A program made the position numbers and the translations under genes. Shown piece after piece: positions 22,120 to 33,919 of a stretch of DNA of 64,000 nt. The notes under the pieces are model-generated. The model was not told the DNA's origin, searched no databases, and was given only the letters and a program-made list of their open reading frames with translations. Numbering within the stretch: position 1 is the stretch's first letter; every line of letters starts with the position of its first letter. Source of the DNA: Bordetella genomosp. 1 (GTDB lineage: Bacteria > Pseudomonadota > Gammaproteobacteria > Burkholderiales > Burkholderiaceae_B). The stretch lies in assembly GCF_002261335.1 (NCBI RefSeq), contig NZ_NEVL01000002.1, positions 124,001 through 188,000 on the forward strand. Reading direction: 5' to 3'.

Positions 22120-22530
22120 TCACTTTTTTGCTGTTCTACACGCGGGGTACTGGCTAGCTATTTCTCCCTCGCAAGTGCCAGTGTAGTGATATCCCTTCTT
22201 CATCATGCAGTACTGCAGATCATCAAACTTGCTATCGAAGACCTCCCTTGCCGTTCTGCCATTTAGTTCATCCTCGGAAACTCCGTATTCGCCAATATAG
22301 GATCCACCACAGTCCATCCAATCCTTGCGCCGAAGATCAACATTTGCCGATTCCTTCTCCCATTCATCTCTTGTGGGAGTTGGATACAGAAGTTTTTGAT
22401 AGGCTTCTCGATCGCAATAGGCCAATGGTGTCTGGGGGCCACAAATTGTTCCATTGCCAATGGCGCAACCCGAAAGCACGACAATCAAGACAGCCCCTGG
22501 CACAAAGGTTCTGATCGTGAGTGAATTCAT
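22120..22530 (-). CDS. Lipoprotein, candidate CDI immunity protein (array member 5)
   Basis: 136 residues. Signal peptide with lipobox LSGC, +2 residue Ala (outer-membrane sorting expected), then conserved IGNGTICGP, YCDREAYQKL, KDWMDCGG and CMMKKGYHYTGTC. Six cysteines follow the lipidated one, which suits disulfide bonding in the periplasm. It is the duplicate of array member 2 (23759-24169), exactly 1639 bases away, but has diverged most among the five in the middle of the protein. Its start codon overlaps the stop of a cdiA-tail remnant. Immunity function is inferred from that linkage; no family name is known to me. Confidence 0.7.
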   Translation of the reverse strand: MNSLTIRTFVPGAVLIVVLSGCAIGNGTICGPQTPLAYCDREAYQKLLYPTPTRDEWEKESANVDLRRKDWMDCGGSYIGEYGVSEDELNGRTAREVFDSKFDDLQYCMMKKGYHYTGTCEGEIASQYPACRTAKK

Positions 22531-22643
22531 CCTGATGCCTCGATGAGTGCAGCGATCGCTTGCCAGACTTCAGGTGGCAGAGCTTCCGACATCGCAAAGG
22601 GCGCTGCGGGAGCTATCGCGATAACGGGCCATGTATTTTGTGC
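22527..22643 (-). pseudogene. Displaced cdiA 3'-end remnant before lipoprotein 5
   Basis: 39 codons, in frame and ending in a stop that overlaps the next ATG, translate to a peptide containing APAAPFAMSEALP, then PEVWQAI and a final IEASG. This is a close copy of the C-terminus of the full-length CdiA (APAAPFAMSEALP, SEVWEAISILIEASK). A TAA in the same frame lies immediately before it, and there is no start. It is the scar of a former toxin gene whose immunity gene was kept. Confidence 0.85.
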
Positions 22644-22673
22644 TTATCCACCTGCTAAAAATCAAACGGCCCG

Positions 22674-23084
22674 TCACCTGTTCCTCGCCTTGCACGCAGG
22701 AAACTGGCTGGCGATCTCTCCCTCGCAACTGCTTGTGTAGCGATATCCCTTCTTCATCATGCAGACCTGCATCTCATCAAACTTGATGCCCGCGGCCTCC
22801 AGGATTTCCCTGCCGTTAAGTTCGCTGTCCGAAATCGAGTACCCGCCGTCAAGGTCTCCCCTGCAATCGATCCAATCCTTCTTCCGTTCATCACTATTTG
22901 CCGACGCTTTCTCCCATTCATCCCTGATCGGAGTCGGATGTACCAGCTTTTGATAGGCCTCTCGATCGCAATATGCCGGTGATGTTAGCGGGCCGCAAAT
23001 TCTGCCATTGCCGATGGTGCAACCCGAAAGCGTAACGATCAGGGCAGCTCCCGGAACAAAGGCTTTGATGGTAAGGATGTTCAT
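22674..23084 (-). CDS. Lipoprotein, candidate CDI immunity protein (array member 4)
   Basis: 136 residues, almost identical to array member 1 (24313-24723), which overlaps the intact cdiA; the differences are a handful of residues such as VHP for LYP and DEW for DKW. Lipobox LSGC with Thr at +2, six further cysteines, and the central segment DGGYSISDSELNGREILEAAGIKF identical to member 1. It should therefore neutralise the same toxin as member 1. Its start overlaps the stop of a short cdiA-like remnant. It is part of the 1639-base duplication. Confidence 0.72.
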   Translation of the reverse strand: MNILTIKAFVPGAALIVTLSGCTIGNGRICGPLTSPAYCDREAYQKLVHPTPIRDEWEKASANSDERKKDWIDCRGDLDGGYSISDSELNGREILEAAGIKFDEMQVCMMKKGYRYTSSCEGEIASQFPACKARNR

Positions 23085-23116
23085 CTTGATGCCTCTATGA
23101 GGACGGAGATGGCCTG
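23081..23116 (-). pseudogene. Short cdiA-tail remnant before lipoprotein 4
   Basis: The last twelve codons including the stop read QAISVLIEASR, matching the CdiA terminus EAISILIEASK. The homology ends abruptly upstream, so only the extreme 3' tip was retained. The TGA overlaps the lipoprotein ATG. Confidence 0.65.
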
Positions 23117-23182
23117 CCCTGTCAGAACGTGACGCGGTTATTGTCAGAGGTGCGAACCCACCAAGGCGTTTTCGCAGACCTA

Positions 23183-23626
23183 TCAGGGCAGAGGTTGAGA
23201 ATCAACCGGCGCCCGTAACCTGTTTCTCGCCTTGCACGCCGGAAACTGGCTGGCAATCTCTCCCTTGCAACTGCTTGTGTAGCGATATCCCTTCTTCATC
23301 ATGCAGCGCTGAATGTCATAGAACTTGATTCGGGAAGCCTCTTCAATTGACCTGCCGTCCATATCCTTTTCCGAAATTCCGTAGTCCCCGTTAACACTCC
23401 CGCCACAGTCCATCCAATCCTTCTTCCGTTCATCACTATTTGCCGATGCCTGCTCCCATTCATCCCTGATCGGGGTCGGATGTACCAGCTTTTGATAGGC
23501 CTCTCGATCGCAATACGCCGGTGATGTTAGCGGGCCGCAAATTCTGCCATTGCCGATGGTGCAACCCGAAAGCGTAACGATCAGGGCAGCTCCCGGAACA
23601 AAGGCTTTGATGGTAAGGATGTTCAT
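23183..23626 (-). CDS. Lipoprotein, candidate CDI immunity protein (array member 3, mosaic)
   Basis: 147 residues. The N-terminal 65 residues and the C-terminal segment from CMMKKGYRYTSSC are essentially those of members 1 and 4. The centre (GGSVNGDYGISEKDMDGRSIEEASRIKFYDIQ) is different and closer to members 2 and 5, as expected from recombination within the array. The stop codon of its relatives is lost, adding eleven residues (LRAPVDSQPLP). Lipobox LSGC and the six extra cysteines are kept. The swapped central part may set toxin specificity; that is inference. Confidence 0.7.
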   Translation of the reverse strand: MNILTIKAFVPGAALIVTLSGCTIGNGRICGPLTSPAYCDREAYQKLVHPTPIRDEWEQASANSDERKKDWMDCGGSVNGDYGISEKDMDGRSIEEASRIKFYDIQRCMMKKGYRYTSSCKGEIASQFPACKARNRLRAPVDSQPLP

Positions 23627-23658
23627 CTTGATGCCTCTATGAGGACGGAGATGGCCTG
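23623..23658 (-). pseudogene. Short cdiA-tail remnant before lipoprotein 3
   Basis: The same twelve-codon tip as before lipoprotein 4 (QAISVLIEASR then TGA overlapping the ATG), with nearly identical flanking bases. It indicates that members 3 and 4 were copied together with this junction. Confidence 0.62.
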
Positions 23659-23758
23659 CCCTGTCAGAAGGTGATGCGATGATTGTCGGAGGTGCGAACC
23701 CGCCAAAGCGTTCTCGCAGACCTGTCAGGGCCAGAGGTTGAGAATCCGACGGCGCTCG

Positions 23759-24169
23759 TCACCTGTTTCCCGATTTACACCCAGGGTGTTGGCGGGCAAT
23801 TTCTCCCTGGCAAGGGCCGGTGTAGTGATATCCCTTCTTCATCATGCAGACCTGCATGTCATCAAATTTGATTCGGGCAGCCTCTAGTCCTGTCCTGCCA
23901 TTCATTTCTTTTTCGGAGATCCCATATTCACCACCCAGATTCCCGCCGCAGTCCATCCAATCCTTGCGGCGGTCATCACTAGTTGCTGACGCCATCTCCC
24001 AGTAATCCCTTGTCGGAGTTGGATGTACCAGTTTTTGATAGGCCTCTCGATCGCAGTACGCTAATGGTGTCTGGGGACCACAAATTGTCCCGTTGCCGAT
24101 GACGCAACCAGAAAGCATCGCGGCGAGGGCAACTCCTGGCACAGAGGTTCTGATAGTGATTGAATTCAT
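23759..24169 (-). CDS. Lipoprotein, candidate CDI immunity protein (array member 2)
   Basis: 136 residues with lipobox LSGC (Val at +2) and the shared framework IGNGTICGPQTPLAYCDREAYQKL. The central region (GGNLGGEYGISEKEMNGRTGLEAARIKF) is distinct from member 1, and the C-terminus GEIARQHPGCKSGNR also differs. Six cysteines follow the lipid-modified one. It starts within the stop codon of a 39-codon cdiA-tail remnant and has a duplicate in member 5. It most likely protects against a toxin variant once encoded here. Confidence 0.7.
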   Translation of the reverse strand: MNSITIRTSVPGVALAAMLSGCVIGNGTICGPQTPLAYCDREAYQKLVHPTPTRDYWEMASATSDDRRKDWMDCGGNLGGEYGISEKEMNGRTGLEAARIKFDDMQVCMMKKGYHYTGPCQGEIARQHPGCKSGNR

Positions 24170-24282
24170 CTTGATGCCCCGATGAGTGCAGAGATCGCTT
24201 GCCAGACTTCAGGTGGCAAAGCTTCTGACATCGCAAAGGGCGCTGCTGGAGCTATCGCGATAACGGGCCATGTATTTTGTGC
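24166..24282 (-). pseudogene. Displaced cdiA 3'-end remnant before lipoprotein 2
   Basis: 39 codons ending APAAPFAMSEALP, PEVWQAISALIGASR and a stop overlapping the lipoprotein-2 ATG, homologous to the last 38 residues of the intact CdiA. An in-frame TAA precedes it. The remnant and its lipoprotein together form an orphan toxin-tail/immunity pair. Confidence 0.85.
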
Positions 24283-24312
24283 TTATCCACCCGCTAAAAA
24301 TCAAACGGCCCG

Positions 24313-24723
24313 TCACCTGTTCCTCGCCTTGCACGCAGGAAACTGGCTGGCAATCTCTCCCTTGCAACTGCTTGTGTAGCGATATCCCTTCTTCATCATG
24401 CAGACCTGCATCTCATCAAACTTGATGCCCGCGGCCTCCAGGATTTCCCTGCCGTTAAGTTCGCTGTCCGAAATTGAGTACCCGCCGTCAGGGTCTCCCC
24501 TGCAGTCGATCCAATCCTTCTTCCGTTCATCACTATTTGCCGATGCCTTCTCCCATTTATCCCTGATTGGAGTCGGATACAGCAGCTTTTGATAGGCCTC
24601 TCGATCGCAATATGCCGGTGATGTTAGCGGGCCGCAAATTCTGCCATTGCCGATGGTGCAACCCGAAAGCGTAACGATCAGGGCAGCCCCCGGCACAAAG
24701 GCTTTGATGGTAAGGATGTTCAT
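24313..24723 (-). CDS. Lipoprotein, probable cognate CDI immunity protein (array member 1)
   Basis: 136 residues; its ATG overlaps the cdiA stop codon by four bases, so translation is coupled to the toxin gene, exactly where cdiI lies in cdiBAI loci. The signal peptide ends in LSGC with Thr at +2, predicting an outer-membrane lipoprotein. Conserved motifs are IGNGRICGP, YCDREAYQKL, KKDWIDC, QVCMMKKGYRYTSSC and FPAC. Six cysteines in an exported protein suggest three disulfides. Known CDI immunity proteins are usually cytoplasmic or inner-membrane proteins, so an exported immunity lipoprotein would imply a toxin acting at or intercepted in the periplasm. No DUF could be named. Confidence 0.75.
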   Translation of the reverse strand: MNILTIKAFVPGAALIVTLSGCTIGNGRICGPLTSPAYCDREAYQKLLYPTPIRDKWEKASANSDERKKDWIDCRGDPDGGYSISDSELNGREILEAAGIKFDEMQVCMMKKGYRYTSSCKGEIASQFPACKARNR

Positions 24724-27700
24724 TTTGATGCCTCTATGAGGATGGAGATGGCCTCCCAGACTTCCGATGGCAGAGCTTCCGACATCGCGAAGGGCGCTGC
24801 TGGAGCAAGTGCAATGAGCGACCATGCATCTTGTGCGTTGGAAATAAACTTCGAACGGCCACGGCGGGCATTTCCTTCCTTGTCGTAAAGTCCGCTCAAT
24901 TTCCCGCCGATCATGTCGTGTGGCCCGGCGAATGCCTCGACGATCTTGTCCGCCAGACTTCCTGCGACATACTGAATCCCGAACAATGTTCCCTTCGCTC
25001 CCTGAATTCCACCGGTGGCTCCGATTGCTCTTTTTCCTTCGTCGCTTTCTAGGAACTGTTCCAAGGTCATTTCCAGCGACTTGGAATCAAATTTGACGAT
25101 ATTGTTTCTGTCGCGCTGCAGCGATCCATCCGAGTTCGCAACGCATCGCTCATTCTCCACGCCGCAAACAATATCCAGATCAATTCGAGTGCCCCCCAGC
25201 TTCTTCCCGTCGCCATCGACACCCTCGCTGACTCCCGAGATGTTGCTCAACGGGACATTGCTGCCGTCGGTGATGCCGGCAAACTTCTTCGAGTCCTCTA
25301 TCATCAGCCTGCGCATTTCGCTGGCTGCCGCGGAGAGGGATTCTTTGGTGACGGCCGAGGCGCCTGATCCTGTCACCGCGCCGATCAGGACGTTGAGTGC
25401 GCGCTCTTGCAGCTTGAGGTCTCGAAGCTCGGCTTCGACTGCCGCCTTCGCTTGCGGATCCTTTTCCGCGGCCTTGAGTTTTTCCTGAAGCCCGGCGCGC
25501 TCGCGCTGCGCATACTGGTGCACCTGCGAATACGCCTGCTGCGAGAATGCCGCCGCGATTTCGGCCTGGGCCTTCACCTGGGCGGCGAGCTTCTCCGGGT
25601 CCCAGTTCCGGGTCAGCCCATGGGCGCTGTCGCCGGTGCGCACCTCGCGGTCCAGGCTGGACACGGCTTGTTCGGCGGTCTTGCCGGTTTCGGCATGCTG
25701 GGCGGTGTGATCGCGGATCTCGGTGACGCCAGCGCTGATGCCGCTGCGGGTGGTGCTGTGCTCGCTGCCGTGCTTCTTGACGTAGCCGGGGGCGCCGGCG
25801 TTTGCGCCGGTGCCGAAGTTCTGCCACGACCATTCGCTGCCTTGGCCTGCCACGTTGCTGGCGGGCGCGGCGTCGGATGTCCCGGCCGCGCCCTCGCTCT
25901 GGGGACTGGCGTCCGCCTTCCTGTCGCCCGCGCCCATGCCGAAGCCCCCGGACACGCTCGCGCCCGTCGCCCGGTAGGCGCTGCGGTTCTCGAGGTCGCC
26001 CGCGGTCAGGGTGCGGGTGCTGAGGCGGTTCAGGCCGTCTTGCACGGCTTTGTCCGTGCTGGCGATCACGGCGCCTTTGAGGCGGGTGTCGCCGTCGACC
26101 TCGACGTCGAAGCCGCCGTCGCCCGCCTGGATGCCGCTTTGCTCGCGCACGCTGGCGAAGTCGCCATCGACCTTGGACTTGCCGTAGCTGGCACTGGCCG
26201 CAAAGCCGACGCCGGCGGTGACGCTGCCGCCGATATTGCTGTCCTTGCTCTTGAAACGGCTGGTGTCCTGCAGGCTTTCGATATCGAGATTGCCTCCGAC
26301 GTCCGCCGCCACCTGCCTGCCGCGCGCGACGGCGCCGCGCAGATGGGTGTCGCCACCGGATTCCAGGGTGAGCGTGTCGCCCGCATCGACGTGGGTGTGG
26401 GTCCAGGTGACATCCTGGCCTTTGCCGCTGCCCTTGCCGCGGCTGGCGTTGGCGGTGACGCCAAAGCCGACGCCGTTGGCGCCCACCGAGATCGCCACAC
26501 CGACACCGCCGCTGGACTGGCTGCTGTCGCGTCTGGTCTCGACCGTGTTGCGGGCGGCCAGCAGATCGATGTCGCCGTCCGCCCTCAGGCGGGCGCTGCC
26601 GCCCGCGCGCAGCGTGCTGCCACGCACCGTCAGGTTGGCATCGTCGCCCGCGCCGGTGGCGCTGATGCGCATGTTGCGGCCGGCCACCACGGTGGAGCCG
26701 GCCGCCGTGTCGTAGTGCGTGCTGGACTGGCTGTCGTTTTTGCTGGCGCCGGCCGTGATGGAGATGCTGATGCCGCCGGCAGTGTCGGGGCTGGCCTGGA
26801 CGGCGGTGATGGCGTTCATGGCGCTCATGCCGGTCGTGGCGGCCGCCAGCGCCTTCATGCGGGTATCGGCGGCGTCGTCGGCGGCCCGCTTCATCTGCTG
26901 GCCGGTCTGCACCGCCGATATCACCGGCGCGGTCAGGGCGACCGTCAGGCCGGACTGGCGGAATTTGCTTTGCTGGGCGCTGGTGCCGGTTTCCCGGGCC
27001 TCGACGATGTCGGCCTTCCTGGCGCGGATGTCGACGTCGCCCTTGGGCGCGACGACATGGCTGCCGGTCTGCTGGTAGTGGTCGCCCGCGACCAGCGCCA
27101 CGTCGCCGCCGGTCGCGCCGACGGTCGAGGCCGCGGCACGGGTGCTCGCGCTGTTGCGGTCGCCGCTCTGTGTCCGGTTGCCCAGGGTGACGGCGAGCCC
27201 ACCGTCGTAGAGAAAGCCGCTCTTGCGCGATTCCTTGAAATGGCTCTCCTTGCGGGTCTCGGTGGCGGCCTGGAGGGTCAGGTCGCGCTTTGCCACGACG
27301 ACCGTGCGAGCGTCCGAGACCACATTGCTGCCGGTGATCGTGACGTCCCGCCCCTGGACCGCCACGGTGTTGCCGCTGAAGGTGGTGGACACCGCCCGGG
27401 TTTCCGCCAGGCTCTCGCGGGTGGTCCGCCGGCTGGCGCCCAGCAGGCCCTTGAACGTGTGTTGCCGGCCCTCGCTCCAGTCGTTGCCGGCTTGGCCGGC
27501 CCGGATGTCCACGTCGCGCCGGGCCACCGTCACCACGGCGCCGCGCTCGCTGTTGACGTGGGCGGCGGTGGCGCTCAGGTCGCGGCCGGCTTGCAGGCGC
27601 ACGTCGCCGGCCGTCTCGATGCGGGTGCCGACCTCGCGCCGCTCGCCCTGCCTGAGATAGTTGCTGGCATTGCGCACATTGCTTTCGTGCTCGGCAACCG

Positions 27701-30700
27701 TGACGGTGCCGAGGCTCAGATCGCGCCCGGCGACGATGGCGGTCTGCCCGTGCTCGCCGCGGTTCACGACCCGGGCCGCGGCCAGCGTGGTGTCGCGGCC
27801 CGCCGTCACCAGCAGGCGCCCGCCGGGCCGGCTCACGTACAGGCCTGCGACGCGATCGAGATGGGTCCGGCTGAAGTCGCTGAGGCCTGCCCGCCTGGCG
27901 TCGCTGCGGGTGGTGCTGCGCACCTCGAGGTCGCGGCCGGCATGGAGCAGGAGCGCCGAATCGGCCTTCATGGTGCCGCCGATGTTGTCGATGTCCGTCC
28001 TGGCGTCGAGCGCCACGGCATCGCCCGTGATGCGGCCACCGAGGTTGCGCAGGTTATCCGCGGTGAGCTTTACCGCGGTGCGTCCGGCCACCGTGCCCGA
28101 GTTGAGCAGATCGCCTTGGAGGTGCAGGTCGATGGCATTGGCGGCCATCAGCGTGCCGTTGGCGTCCAGGTCGCCCGGCTGCATGCGGACATACACCTGC
28201 GGGACCAGCGCACGCGTGGTGCTGCCGTCGGCCAGGGTGACGACGCGCTCCACGAGCCAGACGATATCGCTCGTGAGCTGGGCCATCTGTGCCGCGCTGA
28301 GCGCGATGCCGGGACGCAGTTTCCATGCCCTCGCATAGGTGGCGCCTGCGTCCAGCAGCGCGCGGTACTGCGCCTCGTCGTTGGCGTAGCCGGCGAGGAA
28401 GCGGCGGCCGGTCAGCTGGTCTATCTGGTCGCGCACCAGTTGCTGCTCGTAGTAGCCGTCGCCCAGGCGCTTGTGTGTGGTGGTCGGGTCGTAGCCCAGC
28501 TGGGACAGCAGGTAGTCGGAACTGAGCCAGTTGCGATAGTTGGTGAATCGCGGGTCGGTTTCGATGAGGTAGCCCGCGGCCGCGGGGCCCGCGCGAAACA
28601 GGCTGTTGGCAGGGACTTCGGTGTCCACCCGCACCGTGCGTATGACGGCGGGCGCGTTGCCCTGGGCGTTCTCGACGGACTCGGCCGTGCCGGCGCCGGA
28701 TGGGCCGCCGGCGCTGCTCTGGCCGGTGTGGCGGCCGTCCACGGTAAAGCCGCTGCCGCTGCCGGCCGCGTTCTGCGCGATCTTCGAGACGTCGAGCGCA
28801 ATGGTCTGCACGATGTCGGCGGGCGTGTAGGCGATCCGGTCATCCCATTTGCGCTGGTGGTAGCGTCGGGTGCCGCCGCGCCACTTGCTGTACGTGAACT
28901 GGCTGGTGCCCACCTCGCGGATGATGTGCTCCCCGAAGGCGGCCTCGTTGTGCAGGTTAAGCAGGTCGCCCTGCAAGGTGCCGCCAGCGAGGATCCGGCT
29001 TTTGTCGTTGACCAGATCGTCCCCGCGCAGGCGCATGTCTGCGCCGGCGCGAATCATCGACGGCGCGCTTTCGGTGACGTGGGTTTCGTACTCGGTGCGC
29101 GTGACGTCGTATTGCGTCCAACTGTCGACCTCGGCGCCGGTGGTCTTGTGCCGGTAGCGCCCGGCGCGGCTCCAGTGCTCCCAGCGGTATTCACCGATGT
29201 CGTGCTTGTCCGGGGCGCTTTCGGGCTGGATGAGCATGCTGCGGGTGGGGCCGCCGACCAGGGCCGACACCGTGCTGAAGTGCAGGTTGCGATTGAGCAG
29301 GCGGCGGGTGTCGATGGTCAGGCCGCCCAACGATTCGATGATGGCGCTGGCGTTGCGCACCAGGCCGGCGCGGCCGGTCGCGTGATGGTCCGCGTCCAGC
29401 GCGCCGCCGATGTTGAGCGCGTCGCTGCCGCGACCGGCGCTGAAGATGAGGGCCTGTTCCCGGTTGTCGAGGGCGCCGGCACCGATGTCCAGGCGCTGGC
29501 GCGCCGCGATGGTCGGGGCGTGGCCCGCTTCGTCGCGGTTGTCGAGCGTGCCGGCCTGGATGGCCAGGTGATCGCCGTAGATTCGCCCGGTGCCGACGTT
29601 GTCCAGGGTGCCGGCGTCGATGCGGGTCTGGCCGCCGTCGATGAGGCCGCGGTTGCTCAGCGTGTCGCGCGCAATCACGGTGCTGCGGTTGCCGCTCATT
29701 TCGCCGGTGGCGGCGTTGTCGATGTTGGTACCGCGCAGTTCGAGGTCGCCGGCCTGCACTACGCCGCGGTTGCTCAGCAGGCCCGCGGTACCGATGACCG
29801 CACGCCCATTGGCCCTGATCTCCTCGAGGTTGGTGAAATCCTGCCGGAGGATGAGGCTCAGGTCGCCCCTGGACAGCAGGCTGCCGTCGCCGCCCAGGCT
29901 GCCGGCGCTCACGCCCAGGGATCGGCCGGCGAGCAGCGTGCCGCGCTGGTTGATGACGCGATCGGCGGCGACCTCGATGCGGCCGTCCGAAAGGATGTTG
30001 CCGCGGGCATTGACGAGCGTTCCGGCGCGAATGTCGAAGCCGGCATGGCTCGCCAGGGTGCCGTCGCCATTGTCCAGCTGCGCCCTGGCCTCGATGCGGC
30101 CTGCGGCCTCGCCGCTGTGCAGAACGGTGCCGGCGCGGTTGGAGACGTCCTGCGCGACCAACGAGAAGGCGCCCGCCACCTGCAGCTGGCCGGCGTCGTT
30201 GTCGAGTCGGCCGACCGCGATGCGGGCATCGGCTGCGACCTTGATCTCGCCTTTGTGGTTGCCGAGGTCGCCGCCGCTCACGTGGAGCCGGCGCAGGCCG
30301 AGGTGGCCGCCGTCGTTGTCGATGCCTGCGGTGGCCGCCACGTCGATACCGCCGCCGGCCATGATGCGGCCGTCCTCGTTATCCAGCGTGGCGGCGATGA
30401 CCAGCTCGCCGTCGGCCAGCGACGCACCATGCGTGTGGGACGGACGAACCGCTCCGCCGGCGGCGTCGTCACCCCGCGCGCCGTGGGTTTGCCCCGAGGT
30501 GCCCGGCGCTGCGGTGTCGCCCGGGTTTCGGGCGTTGTCCGGAGGCGTGGCGGCGTCGGCCGCCGCCAGACCGATGCGGCCGCCGGCACGGTTGGCGAGG
30601 AGGGCGGTGCGCAGCGTCAGGCCCTGGCTGCCGGTCTGCTCGATGGCGCCGCCGCGGTTCGTCAGCGATCGGGCATGGGCTGCGACGCGGCGCGCGTTCA

Positions 30701-31820
30701 GCGTGCCCCGGTCGTTGTCGATACTCCCGGGTGTGGACACCGCCAGGGTGCGGCCCGCGCTGATCGTGCCGGTATTGGTGATGCCGCCGCTCGCATCGAT
30801 ACGGACATCGGCCTGCGCCTGCATCGTGCCGCTGTTCTCGAGGCGGCCATCGGCGGTGACGACGAGCTGACCGATTTGCGCGCCCAGGGCGCCGGCGTTG
30901 CGCATGCCGACACCGTGCTCGGTGCCGACCAGCACGATCTTGCGGCTGTACATGCCGCCCAGCGCGCCGACATCCAGCGCGAACGCGGGGGCATCGCCGT
31001 CGGATGCGATCGTTCGTACCTCGGCGTGGTCGGCGTCGAGCGCGTTGGCGCCGGTGGTGACCTGCAGTCGCTGCGCCCAGATGCCGGCGTTCACCGCCAC
31101 GGCTCGGGCGATCAGGTCGGCATACTGGGTATCGCGCGCGTCCATGCCTTGGCCCGAGATCCGGATGGTGCCCCCTTCGACGCGGTAGGCCTCCAGGCTC
31201 CCGCCGTTGAAGACCGGTGTGCCGGTGGTGAGGGTGGCGCGCTCGGCGTTGATGAAGCCGCAGCCGTCGCAGGAGATGCCGGTGGGATTCGCGATCACGA
31301 GCTGGGCGCGCTCGCCCGCGACCTCGACGTAGCCCCGCAGCAGGCTCGGGTTGCTGGAATTCACTTCGTTCAGGATCACGCGCGCGGCGCCTGTGGCCAA
31401 CCAGGGATTGCCTTGCACCCAGCCACCCAGTTGCGTGCGGGTATTGGTGCGGGAGTTGTTGAGCACCGCGCCGGGGTGGTCGACGTCGAATTGCCGGTAC
31501 GTGTTGCGCGAAACGCCGGCGGCGCTGGGCGTCTGGATGTTCACCAGGAGCACGCCGTTGGCGGCGCGCAGCACGGTCGGGCGCTGCTGTGCGGGCGCGT
31601 CGGGATCCGCGACGATCTGTGCGCCGGCCATCGGCACGACGAGCGCCTGGCCCAGCGCGATCGCCAGGGCGAAGCGCAAGGGCAGGAGGGCGGCCAGGAC
31701 TCGGCGACGCGCCGCCGCGGCTCCGGATGCGCCGGGACGCTTGCGGCGCGCCGTTTCTGCGACGACCTGCAACACGCCCAACGCGCGGTTGAAGACGATG
31801 CGGTGGAGGTTCCTGTTCAT
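24720..31820 (-). CDS. cdiA: CdiA-type contact-dependent inhibition exoprotein (two-partner secretion)
   Basis: 2366 residues. Extended signal peptide region (MNRNLHRIVFNRALGVLQV, then a hydrophobic stretch to about residue 68), TPS secretion domain (about 75-320, with VIANPTGISCDGCGFINAERATLTTG), and long filamentous-haemagglutinin repeats to about 1950. Then comes a pretoxin region with STTRSGISAGV and a coiled, charged segment. The C-terminal module begins near residue 2170 (MRRLMIEDSKKFAG, KLGGTRIDLDIVCG) and ends APAAPFAMSEALPSEVWEA. No VENN motif and no nuclease signature is seen. AAGGAGAT precedes the ATG, 27 bases after cdiB. The last 800 bases are lower in GC, as expected of an exchanged toxin module. 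The toxin's activity is unknown. Confidence 0.88.
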   Translation of the reverse strand: MNRNLHRIVFNRALGVLQVVAETARRKRPGASGAAAARRRVLAALLPLRFALAIALGQALVVPMAGAQIVADPDAPAQQRPTVLRAANGVLLVNIQTPSAAGVSRNTYRQFDVDHPGAVLNNSRTNTRTQLGGWVQGNPWLATGAARVILNEVNSSNPSLLRGYVEVAGERAQLVIANPTGISCDGCGFINAERATLTTGTPVFNGGSLEAYRVEGGTIRISGQGMDARDTQYADLIARAVAVNAGIWAQRLQVTTGANALDADHAEVRTIASDGDAPAFALDVGALGGMYSRKIVLVGTEHGVGMRNAGALGAQIGQLVVTADGRLENSGTMQAQADVRIDASGGITNTGTISAGRTLAVSTPGSIDNDRGTLNARRVAAHARSLTNRGGAIEQTGSQGLTLRTALLANRAGGRIGLAAADAATPPDNARNPGDTAAPGTSGQTHGARGDDAAGGAVRPSHTHGASLADGELVIAATLDNEDGRIMAGGGIDVAATAGIDNDGGHLGLRRLHVSGGDLGNHKGEIKVAADARIAVGRLDNDAGQLQVAGAFSLVAQDVSNRAGTVLHSGEAAGRIEARAQLDNGDGTLASHAGFDIRAGTLVNARGNILSDGRIEVAADRVINQRGTLLAGRSLGVSAGSLGGDGSLLSRGDLSLILRQDFTNLEEIRANGRAVIGTAGLLSNRGVVQAGDLELRGTNIDNAATGEMSGNRSTVIARDTLSNRGLIDGGQTRIDAGTLDNVGTGRIYGDHLAIQAGTLDNRDEAGHAPTIAARQRLDIGAGALDNREQALIFSAGRGSDALNIGGALDADHHATGRAGLVRNASAIIESLGGLTIDTRRLLNRNLHFSTVSALVGGPTRSMLIQPESAPDKHDIGEYRWEHWSRAGRYRHKTTGAEVDSWTQYDVTRTEYETHVTESAPSMIRAGADMRLRGDDLVNDKSRILAGGTLQGDLLNLHNEAAFGEHIIREVGTSQFTYSKWRGGTRRYHQRKWDDRIAYTPADIVQTIALDVSKIAQNAAGSGSGFTVDGRHTGQSSAGGPSGAGTAESVENAQGNAPAVIRTVRVDTEVPANSLFRAGPAAAGYLIETDPRFTNYRNWLSSDYLLSQLGYDPTTTHKRLGDGYYEQQLVRDQIDQLTGRRFLAGYANDEAQYRALLDAGATYARAWKLRPGIALSAAQMAQLTSDIVWLVERVVTLADGSTTRALVPQVYVRMQPGDLDANGTLMAANAIDLHLQGDLLNSGTVAGRTAVKLTADNLRNLGGRITGDAVALDARTDIDNIGGTMKADSALLLHAGRDLEVRSTTRSDARRAGLSDFSRTHLDRVAGLYVSRPGGRLLVTAGRDTTLAAARVVNRGEHGQTAIVAGRDLSLGTVTVAEHESNVRNASNYLRQGERREVGTRIETAGDVRLQAGRDLSATAAHVNSERGAVVTVARRDVDIRAGQAGNDWSEGRQHTFKGLLGASRRTTRESLAETRAVSTTFSGNTVAVQGRDVTITGSNVVSDARTVVVAKRDLTLQAATETRKESHFKESRKSGFLYDGGLAVTLGNRTQSGDRNSASTRAAASTVGATGGDVALVAGDHYQQTGSHVVAPKGDVDIRARKADIVEARETGTSAQQSKFRQSGLTVALTAPVISAVQTGQQMKRAADDAADTRMKALAAATTGMSAMNAITAVQASPDTAGGISISITAGASKNDSQSSTHYDTAAGSTVVAGRNMRISATGAGDDANLTVRGSTLRAGGSARLRADGDIDLLAARNTVETRRDSSQSSGGVGVAISVGANGVGFGVTANASRGKGSGKGQDVTWTHTHVDAGDTLTLESGGDTHLRGAVARGRQVAADVGGNLDIESLQDTSRFKSKDSNIGGSVTAGVGFAASASYGKSKVDGDFASVREQSGIQAGDGGFDVEVDGDTRLKGAVIASTDKAVQDGLNRLSTRTLTAGDLENRSAYRATGASVSGGFGMGAGDRKADASPQSEGAAGTSDAAPASNVAGQGSEWSWQNFGTGANAGAPGYVKKHGSEHSTTRSGISAGVTEIRDHTAQHAETGKTAEQAVSSLDREVRTGDSAHGLTRNWDPEKLAAQVKAQAEIAAAFSQQAYSQVHQYAQRERAGLQEKLKAAEKDPQAKAAVEAELRDLKLQERALNVLIGAVTGSGASAVTKESLSAAASEMRRLMIEDSKKFAGITDGSNVPLSNISGVSEGVDGDGKKLGGTRIDLDIVCGVENERCVANSDGSLQRDRNNIVKFDSKSLEMTLEQFLESDEGKRAIGATGGIQGAKGTLFGIQYVAGSLADKIVEAFAGPHDMIGGKLSGLYDKEGNARRGRSKFISNAQDAWSLIALAPAAPFAMSEALPSEVWEAISILIEASK

Positions 31821-31847
31821 GCCATCTCCTTTATTGCGTGCGCAACT

Positions 31848-33554
31848 TCAGAGGGACCAGCTGAGGCTGAAGCCCGTCGTGAATGCGTCGGTCCTGAAAC
31901 CCCCGGGCCGGAACAGCGGGGTGCCGGCAAACAGGTCCCAGTGGAAGCCCTTGACGCCACCTCGCAGGCCGATGACGGCCCCGGCCAGGTCGCGCCCGGG
32001 GAGCCAGCGCGTGGATGGGCCACCGACATGCCCGTAGTCGGCGCCGACGTAGAGCTCCTGGCCCGCGCCGAGCAGCAGGCCGAGTTCGTTGCGCCATACC
32101 CAGCCGCGGTCGCCCATCAGGGTCAGCTCGCCGCTGAAGCCGCGCACGGTGTAGCGCCCGCCGATGGAGAAGCGGTCCTGCGGCACCAGCGGTGTGCGAT
32201 TCCATTGCGCGCGCCAACTGCCGATGTAGCGGACGTGTTGCGTTCCGAGCCTCAAGGGAAGCGTCAATTGGGCGTCTGCGGAGATCACCTGCATGCGAGA
32301 GGTGCCTTCCCCGAACGCTTCCTCGGGCGCGGTCATCGCGTGGAAGGCGCCGGTGCCGCGCCGGTAGGAGAGGCTCGCATCGAGCGTGCTTGCGCCCAGG
32401 TACTCGCGGTGCGTGAGCCCCAGTTCCCAGCCGCCGCTGCGGCGACGCTGGACCGCGATTTCCGTGTCGTCGATGAAGTTGCTCGACGTGCGCATCCAGG
32501 CGCGCAGGTAGAGGGCCGTCTTGCGCGTGGCATCGCGATGGATGAGCCGCGACAGCCGCACTTCGGCGTTGCTGCTGGTGCCGCTGTAGCGATAGCGCTG
32601 GCTGTAGCCGGCCACGGTCTGCCGGTAGTCGTAGGCGCTGGCGGTGGCGCCGAGCGTCCAGTAGCCGTAAGGCACGCTGTAATGGGCGGTGTAGGCCCGG
32701 GTGCCTTTGCCCTTACCGTTGAAGACGTCGTGGTTGACGTAGGCGTAGAACAGGTCGTTCCACATGAGCAGGTCATCGAGCGAGAGCGTGAGCCCGCCCT
32801 GCAGCCTGCCCGTGGCTTTGCTGCCGGCGTCGTCCAGGAAGACGGACAGCCTGACCGGCGGGGAGCGCTGGCGCCAGGCGATGACCAGATCGCTTTCGCC
32901 GGGCCCGGCGTCCTCGCCCTCGGCCGGTACGATCCGGATGTCTGCCTCCACCGTGGGCACGCGCTTGAAGTTCTCGAGCGCCTGTTCGATGTCACGCAGG
33001 TCGAGCAGGTCGCCGCGCCTGGCCGGCACGGCGTTCCATGCGGTGGCCTTGCGCGAGGTGCCGGCGGCATAGCGGATGGCACGAATGCGGCCGGGCACGA
33101 GGGTCAGCGTCAGGACGCCGGCATTCAGATCCTGCGGTGCCGCCAGCACGCGGGTGGTGACGAAGCCGCGGGCGACGATGGCATTCTGCACCCGGGCCAT
33201 CACCCCGTTGATGCCGCGAGCGCCGAGACAGCGGCCGGTGGCGGGATCGTCTGTCGGATCTGCTGCCTTCAGTGCCCAGGCAAAGCGCGCGGCGTACTCG
33301 CCGTCCAGTCGAATCCGGGTAATGCGCAAGCACGGCGTGTCATCCGTCGGCAATCGCCCCGGCGGCGGCGCCTGCGACGGCGGCAAGCGCACGTCCGGCG
33401 CGGCTTCCTGCTGCTCGCGCAGCACCCGCTCGCGTTCCTGCTGGCGGAGATGCTCTTGTGCGGCGGCGTCGGGCAGGGGTTGTGGCAAGGCCGGAACGAC
33501 GGGCGCCAGCGAGAGCAACAAGGCCCAAGGCATTCGCAGAATCCGAGTCCCCAT
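31848..33554 (-). CDS. cdiB: CdiB-type two-partner secretion outer-membrane transporter
   Basis: 568 residues from ATG 33554 (GAGG upstream; an in-frame GTG at 33566 is an alternative). Signal peptide with ALLLSLAPVVPALPQ, a Gln/Arg-rich helix and linker, POTRA domains (about residues 75-225, with ITRIRLDG and VPGRIRAIRYA), then a 16-strand barrel. The secretion-motif strand reads RFSIGGRYTVRGF, and the C-terminus FSLSWSL ends in Leu with aromatic alternation. It binds the TPS domain of CdiA in the periplasm and threads it to the surface. The two genes form an operon in the order B-A-I. Confidence 0.9.
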   Translation of the reverse strand: MGTRILRMPWALLLSLAPVVPALPQPLPDAAAQEHLRQQERERVLREQQEAAPDVRLPPSQAPPPGRLPTDDTPCLRITRIRLDGEYAARFAWALKAADPTDDPATGRCLGARGINGVMARVQNAIVARGFVTTRVLAAPQDLNAGVLTLTLVPGRIRAIRYAAGTSRKATAWNAVPARRGDLLDLRDIEQALENFKRVPTVEADIRIVPAEGEDAGPGESDLVIAWRQRSPPVRLSVFLDDAGSKATGRLQGGLTLSLDDLLMWNDLFYAYVNHDVFNGKGKGTRAYTAHYSVPYGYWTLGATASAYDYRQTVAGYSQRYRYSGTSSNAEVRLSRLIHRDATRKTALYLRAWMRTSSNFIDDTEIAVQRRRSGGWELGLTHREYLGASTLDASLSYRRGTGAFHAMTAPEEAFGEGTSRMQVISADAQLTLPLRLGTQHVRYIGSWRAQWNRTPLVPQDRFSIGGRYTVRGFSGELTLMGDRGWVWRNELGLLLGAGQELYVGADYGHVGGPSTRWLPGRDLAGAVIGLRGGVKGFHWDLFAGTPLFRPGGFRTDAFTTGFSLSWSL

Positions 33555-33919
33555 TGCGGTCCTCACCCATGTCCGTTTGCGTCGCGTGCAAAAGCAGTCC
33601 CGCGCGGAAAGCGTGGCGCTCGACGTTGCTGGTCAGTCAGCGGTGAGGATAGATTTCGATTTGAATAAAGCGAACGCGAGAACGGTCCGAGTATTGATGG
33701 GGCGGTGACTTGGCGACGGGGGCTTCCCGACGCGCGGGAGGCACTGCGCCCCACCGGGGGAGGGTGGGGCGATTCGGACAGGGGTGTGGGAATCTTGTCG
33801 CACCCTGCCGGATCGAGGGGACGCTGGCCTGTGCTGGCGCGGGACGAAAAAAAAGGCCAAAACCGAGTTTTGGCCTTTCTTCGGTCATTCGTGGACTTGG
33901 GCGTCCAGGAACGAAAATT
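33555..33919. other. Gene-free stretch between cdiB and tRNA-Gly
   Basis: It holds the upstream region of cdiB (an AT-richer patch around 33640-33680 is the likely promoter area, without convincing boxes) and the terminator at 33846-33878 for the minus-strand tRNA. Nothing else is seen. Confidence 0.5.
33846..33878 (-). terminator. Terminator downstream of tRNA-Gly copy 2
   Basis: Minus-strand stem AAAGGCCAAAA/TTTTGGCCTTT with a 5-base loop followed by a T-run, about 40 bases past the tRNA 3' end. Confidence 0.82.

Follow-up and report, generated by a model that had tools for sequence, protein, structure and literature searches.

Among described bacterial systems, the closest to the locus reported here are the orphan cdiA-CT/cdiI modules of contact-dependent growth inhibition (CDI), whose original description is reportedly that of Poole et al. 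in 2011. As characterized in the part of one account that deals with them, these modules are displaced 3' ends of the exoprotein gene cdiA, each with an immunity gene, situated 3' of cdiA, and their C-termini (CTs) typically begin at a VENN-type motif and are toxic when expressed (PMC9086364). The silent mafB-CT cassettes of Neisseria, C-terminal cassettes that lack an initiation codon and are followed by mafI immunity genes, belong to another exoprotein family with varied C-terminal toxin domains, according to the section devoted to them (PMC4287609). An immunity protein that is an apparent lipoprotein has been listed as well: Imm65, the partner of Tox-JAB-1, stated to be the sole lipoprotein of that collection in the relevant part of the 2012 survey, resembles the proteins studied here by description (PMC3482391). 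The cdi regions of Haemophilus parasuis D74, which we compare by description only, hold candidates that are not called lipoproteins in the passages concerned (PMC6211672). In this paper we examine a window of 64,000 nucleotides from Bordetella genomosp. 1 (contig NZ_NEVL01000002.1, positions 124,001 to 188,000), in which a CDI-type locus on the minus strand ends in an array of five small lipoprotein genes (L1 to L5), and we argue that these genes probably encode CDI immunity proteins.

The order of genes along the minus strand is cdiB, cdiA, and then L1 to L5. A transporter gene of the cdiB/TpsB type (31848..33566, 572 aa; Pfam ShlB at 1.2e-105, POTRA_2 and POTRA_3) adjoins a cdiA/TpsA exoprotein gene (24720..31820, 2366 aa) with TPS and ESPR domains and filamentous hemagglutinin repeats (Fil_haemagg_2). 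As the original prediction had stated, five paralogous lipoprotein genes, all of them open, occupy 22120-24723 behind cdiA, and the start of L1 (24313..24723) overlaps the cdiA stop codon as ATGA; in relatives, too, a small gene overlaps the cdiA stop. The remaining genes, L2 (23759..24169), L3 (23183..23626), L4 (22674..23084) and L5 (22120..22530), are each preceded by a stretch resembling the 3' end of cdiA, and all four of these stumps end in the same ATGA. Every one of the five predicted proteins has a signal peptide, the lipobox LSGC and six further cysteines; L3 carries an additional C-terminal extension of 11 residues. Aspartate is absent from position +2 in all five, as it is in 57 of 57 modules (those with a recognizable start among 61), which predicts an outer-membrane lipoprotein. 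The proteins have no Pfam or NCBIfam match. In our reading, which we consider likely, this is a CDI locus with a conserved C-terminus acting in the envelope, periplasm-facing outer-membrane lipoproteins as immunity proteins, and L2 to L5 as orphan antidotes.

The C-terminal part of CdiA appears to be of a piece with the array behind it. Within cdiA the GC content of third codon positions drops from 0.90 to 0.63 at about codon 2110 (window position about 25490), and low GC continues through the array; the last ~257 cdiA codons (24720..25490), a module recognized from this change point and from alignments, thus look like one acquired module together with the lipoprotein genes, foreign in composition. 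Low-GC cdiA-CT/cdiI modules have been reported from Stenotrophomonas in the corresponding part of another study (PMC11893273). Alignments show that the module conserves the motif xHDMIGGxxSGLYDxxGN..PFAMSE.LP..W.AIS, and its last 225 residues are modeled with a mean predicted local distance difference test score (pLDDT) of 78.8; a second subtype of the C-terminus exists (..HDxLNS..). A pore-forming toxin was considered and set aside; hydrophobicity of the conserved tail is only moderate (about 1.0-1.7 on the Kyte-Doolittle scale in stretches of 19 residues), which makes such a toxin neither likely nor unlikely.

Homologs of the lipoproteins are found mostly at cdiA ends and not away from them, as the original prediction required. 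Searches with the lipoproteins (own genome included each time) matched 8 of 268 genomes of the family, 9 of 399 of the order and 3 of 369 of the class. In 13 of the 16 other genomes with a match, a lipoprotein gene lies at most 120 bases behind the C-terminus or its displaced end; the three exceptions are a probable false match (G303; G and L numbers are our labels for genomes and loci), an array in decay (G337) and a gene standing alone (G555). With the C-terminus by itself as the query, 21 loci were obtained in named genomes, of genera including Bordetella, Achromobacter, Polaromonas, Methylotenera, Methylophaga and Vogesella, and 18 of these have a lipoprotein within the same distance (L024 and L025 among them look like duplicates, and the gene of L037 is split over two frames). 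The three without are L028 (Cupriavidus), L041 (where a truncated lipoprotein-like frame accompanies a displaced end) and L044 (decayed). Further searches with the C-terminus matched 5 of 299, 2 of 61, 9 of 150 (the Methylotenera family, L063 and L027 being the same locus) and 28 of 140 genomes, the last count including displaced and partial ends in a family that we take to be Pasteurellaceae. This association with the C-terminus supports the earlier proposal, made for the window, that the lipoproteins are candidate immunity genes. In Neisseriaceae TC5R-5, one scaffold holds the C-terminus with the broken lipoprotein gene (L037), and another holds the displaced end and truncated frame of L041.

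The company that the genes keep bears on a different function. The lipoprotein could be a secretion or maturation accessory of its own CdiA, with the array representing redundancy. A precedent is BcpO of the Burkholderia bcpAIOB loci, a CDI-operon lipoprotein that, like L1 to L5, is small and predicted to reside in the outer membrane, and that is required for full CDI as reported in the pertinent part of its description (PMC3415462), and a conserved C-terminus would suit a conserved partner. The BcpO gene, however, is described there as lying 5' to bcpB, in an operon that also contains a distinct immunity gene, and the mature protein as nearly identical within the main family (PMC3415462), whereas L1 to L5 lie behind cdiA, with cdiB upstream of cdiA, so that the gene here takes the place of cdiI, is arrayed, and varies widely. 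Moreover, full-length lipoprotein genes persist in three genomes (G1594, G1604 and G1580) that have other TPS proteins and no full copy of the C-terminus at E<=1e-4. In G1594 (L153) they form, with displaced ends, part of an orphan array that follows a cdiA of VENN type and includes Ntox21, Endonuclea_NS_2 and PT-VENN pieces; in G1604 (L154) they stand beside Colicin-DNase/WHH and SUKH (SMI1_KNR4) genes, again among other toxin and immunity orphans. The persistence of lipoprotein genes where the matching exoprotein is missing is easier to reconcile with immunity than with an accessory role, which we regard as unlikely.

The stumps themselves reveal how the window array may have grown. Before L2 (24166..24282) and L5 (22527..22643) lie 38 sense codons and a stop homologous to the cdiA 3' end, each following an in-frame TAA; the remnants of 39 codons named in the original prediction are thus real, 39 being the count with the stop. 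A profile search of the window's own genome with the C-terminus recovered these two stumps (E 7e-12 and 3e-11) and otherwise cdiA alone at E<=0.01. Before L3 (23623..23658) and L4 (23081..23116), the resemblance is limited to the last 11 residues (QAISVLIEASR) and the stop, as had been noted, and the frame happens to be open further back, for 33 and 18 codons, into unrelated spacer. A start codon within a stump is possible. Compared with the known orphan CTs, the window stumps comprise 38 or 11 codons, share the C-terminal type of the present end and have a lipoprotein as partner; they seem too short to encode a domain and hence to be self-active displaced toxins.

A repeat of 300 nt recurs in five copies at an even spacing of 542-554 nt, 68-83% identical to the reference copy, so the array is not due to chance. 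The stumps before L2 and L5 are 92% identical as protein; the spacer between genes 1 and 2 matches that between 4 and 5 at 95% identity, and the 2-3 and 3-4 spacers match at 91%; at the DNA level L1 and L4 share 97% identity and L2 and L5 76%. L3 is a mosaic: its first 90 bases are 100% identical to L4, its middle is 60-63% like L1 and L4, and its end is L1-like again. In the window's own genome, the second spacer type (23627..23758 on the minus strand, with a copy at 23085-23182 and a part directly after L5) was found just in the array, except that its final 33 bases also match the end of cdiA. About the same distance (71-74% over 38 residues) separates the stumps, the Bordetella trematum end and the present end of cdiA. 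Given the high identities of the spacers and of L1 and L4, the stumps are evidently in large part copies of one another, and duplication, unequal exchange and mosaicism, as read from these alignments, built much of the array. One old displaced end, followed by duplication, exchange and the mosaicism of L3, would need fewer events than four replacements, and four independent replacement events were rejected on the same identities. Nor is a swap to an unrelated toxin seen in the window, since stumps and present end belong to one C-terminal type (74% over 38 aa).

Displaced ends are a recurrent feature in relatives. We surveyed 40 regions of 38 genomes around C-terminus matches, a set that, being chosen by the C-terminus, cannot show lipoproteins elsewhere, and in which C-termini were labeled automatically and roughly (the long-frame second-subtype ends of L150 and L151 count as displaced, the frame of ~173 aa in L113 as host, and one broken end of L141 as two). 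Host-type C-termini, preceded by a long frame, have a lipoprotein gene start within -15 to +45 bases in 32 of 37 cases; the five exceptions are L120 (frameshifted, its 3' part with a lipoprotein), L130 (a 5' fragment) and the second-subtype L144, L146 and L148. Displaced ends, 34 of them truncated and 3 of full length within a short frame, are directly followed by a lipoprotein in 29 of 37 cases, and 35 of the 37 reach profile position 104 or beyond (of 109-110), with a 5' limit anywhere from 2 to 92. The 40 regions also contain 18 lipoprotein matches without a C-terminus directly before them. In L128, five further lipoprotein matches (four genes, the last split over two frames) follow the first without detectable stumps between them.

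The locus of Achromobacter dolens (L035, also labeled G009) offers the clearest view of displacement. Three lipoprotein genes follow cdiA, and the third is preceded by a displaced cdiA end of ~66 codons and a further piece in another frame. The third gene is 66-69% identical as protein and 83% as DNA to the single lipoprotein gene of two congeneric genomes (G012 and G041), the first two are 42-46% identical to it, and a shared flank, 92-93% identical, resumes ~1.6 kb further on; against A. pulmonis the contrast is smaller (third gene 49%, first two 43% and 40%). Most likely, to judge from these comparisons, the first two genes entered between cdiA and the older third gene. The original prediction of a footprint of repeated replacement holds to the extent that inserted genes displaced an older one in A. 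dolens, while in the Bordetella window four stumps do not represent four events.

These data also limit a simpler account, plain tandem duplication, by which the remnants are 5' flanks copied along with a ribosome-binding site, and the copies serve no particular purpose. The identities of the spacers (95% and 91%) and of L1 with L4 (97%) and the even repeat spacing are what such a process would produce, but it leaves unexplained the recurrence in other families of displaced ends of very different lengths and the insertion in A. dolens; in addition, L2 and L5 are just 76% alike although the spacers preceding them are 95% alike, and all five window copies are open. As a full explanation we find it quite improbable.

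If the lipoproteins are immunity proteins, they might be expected to vary along with the C-termini to which they are joined. Across 49 of the 61 modules, from 28 genomes (those of a single profile type with 30 or more residues and free of stops), distances between stumps over the last 60 columns are correlated with distances between lipoproteins at r 0.445, versus 0.300 +- 0.069 when modules are shuffled within genomes (p 0.019); for the last 33 columns, the values are 0.364 versus 0.253 (p 0.035). Mantel tests with 17 host pairs from a first set, not controlled for relatedness, gave weak correlations (r 0.18-0.33, p 0.005-0.049). In partial Mantel tests controlled for the upstream region (17 of 23 pairs of a second set, six with a frame below 430 aa left out), C-terminus and lipoprotein are correlated for the HD..GN motif (0.45, p 0.003) and for the region just before it (0.41, p 0.02). 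The idea that the lipoprotein masks a receptor or entry site at the target-cell outer membrane, considered for its predicted outer-membrane location (no aspartate at +2 in any of the 57) and then dropped, is very improbable, since lipoprotein distances track C-terminus distances within genomes, as expected for direct binding, which a receptor mask need not do. The junction has a further property: in 56 of the 57 modules with a recognizable start, a Shine-Dalgarno-like triplet occurs within a stretch of 13 bases that ends four before the ATG of the lipoprotein gene and consists mostly of the final cdiA codons; among random 13-mers from the same loci the figure is 34%.

Several findings weigh against our interpretation. 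Textbook CDI systems are recognized in part by a highly variable C-terminal toxin domain, which is not what is seen here: the C-terminus is 45-77% identical to that of the window among 19 relatives, across families, a conservation unlike the polymorphism of CDI toxins, whereas the lipoproteins of the relatives vary more (16-40% identity to L1). The window CdiA has no PT-VENN or toxin domain in Pfam (E up to 1), the last 635-720 aa of all 10 relatives scanned lack VENN and known toxin domains (a scan that did not extend to the equivalent motifs of other genera), and the C-terminus has no match in PDB. Pairwise dN/dS among the five window copies is 0.14-0.43; values below 1 give no sign of an arms race. 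The co-variation is modest: the lipoproteins also correlate with the upstream region used as control (0.53), and the partial Mantel correlations fall short of significance over the last 60 columns (0.32, p 0.053), for the region after GN (0.23, p 0.096) or for the middle (0.19, p 0.138). The Cupriavidus locus L028 has a full C-terminus with no such lipoprotein behind it, and L021 has a lipoprotein with no C-terminus within the 3.3 kb examined. Retention is not strict either: a frameshift interrupts the third A. dolens gene, an orphan that has thus not stayed functional, and L017 and L037 are broken too. Because of the missing VENN and known toxin domains, the conserved C-terminus and the partly non-significant distance correlations, we are less sure of a toxin than of an immunity array.

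The mechanism that we propose, with its toxicity, immunity, place of action and route of recombination, reaches beyond the anatomy, association, retention, displacement and composition read from the sequences, and would run as follows. CdiA would end in a conserved domain of ~220-260 residues acting in the envelope of the target cell, and the immunity proteins would be outer-membrane lipoproteins facing the periplasm. L1, translated in the overlap with the cdiA stop, would be the cognate antidote, binding the C-terminus in the periplasm of the producer and again upon delivery by a sibling; L2 to L5 would be orphan immunity genes against other allelic forms of the same C-terminus. A new segment of cdiA 3' end and lipoprotein gene would enter by recombination in the conserved 3' end, leaving the old lipoprotein gene and a stump behind, and tandem duplication and unequal exchange would afterwards act within the array. 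That stumps retain their 3' end may be due to the content of the final cdiA codons, which include the overlap and the probable ribosome-binding site of the lipoprotein gene. CdiA C-termini are described, in the part of the account cited above that deals with delivery, as waiting in the producer periplasm and entering the target periplasm on contact (PMC9086364), and a periplasm-facing lipoprotein fits a toxin acting in the periplasm or on membranes.

Compared with textbook CDI, the locus has no VENN domain, no known toxin domain and a C-terminus conserved between families; the VENN-less conserved C-terminus, together with six-cysteine lipoproteins of outer-membrane type, suggests an envelope-acting CDI class. 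An orphan CDI immunity array is of a known kind, and the lipoprotein family and the conserved C-terminus are new as far as the open-access literature was searched; the phrase 'immunity lipoprotein' was absent among the matches listed in that search. Colicin E types offer an analogy, in that their contest is over allelic variants. We consider it an evenly balanced question whether these loci form an unrecognized class of CDI in Beta- and Gammaproteobacteria, in which a VENN-less, conserved C-terminus would act in the target periplasm or on membranes without entering the cytoplasm, strongly varying six-cysteine lipoproteins would serve as antidotes, the contest would be allelic, with no swaps to unrelated toxins, and the last cdiA codons would be both recombination handle and translation start of the antidote. 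If our interpretation is right, a recurrent, unnamed family of small lipoproteins gains a function, the conserved C-terminus of CdiA, in which no known domain is recognized, becomes a candidate for a toxin acting in the envelope, and immunity arrays can grow with exoprotein stumps kept as carriers of the antidote's translation start. Lipoprotein immunity in CDI would then be a notable addition to the single apparent lipoprotein given in the relevant part of the 2012 survey (PMC3482391).

Other C-termini in the surveyed genomes are also joined to lipoproteins. The second subtype, here as ..HDMLNS.., is followed by an unrelated lipoprotein family (CPxLSGxY) in three of five regions (L146, L150 and L151); in L151 a displaced end precedes a second copy of such a gene, and no lipoprotein of that family was seen behind the ends of L144 and L148. 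Displaced pieces with an AHSRG motif, which we take to be lipase-like, occur at L153:6442-7439, in L155 (minus strand) and at L027:10409-11071, and those of L153 and L155 are followed by other small lipoproteins (CSFGGFxPPxP..ACGMD..GWY). Pfam gave a sub-threshold match to Abhydrolase_6 for the piece in L027 and none for those in L153 and L155; they are possibly a lipase-type CdiA C-terminus with lipoprotein immunity. Lastly, an open frame of 2753 aa on the plus strand of the window (25407-33668), opposite cdiA and cdiB, is most likely a product of high GC content.

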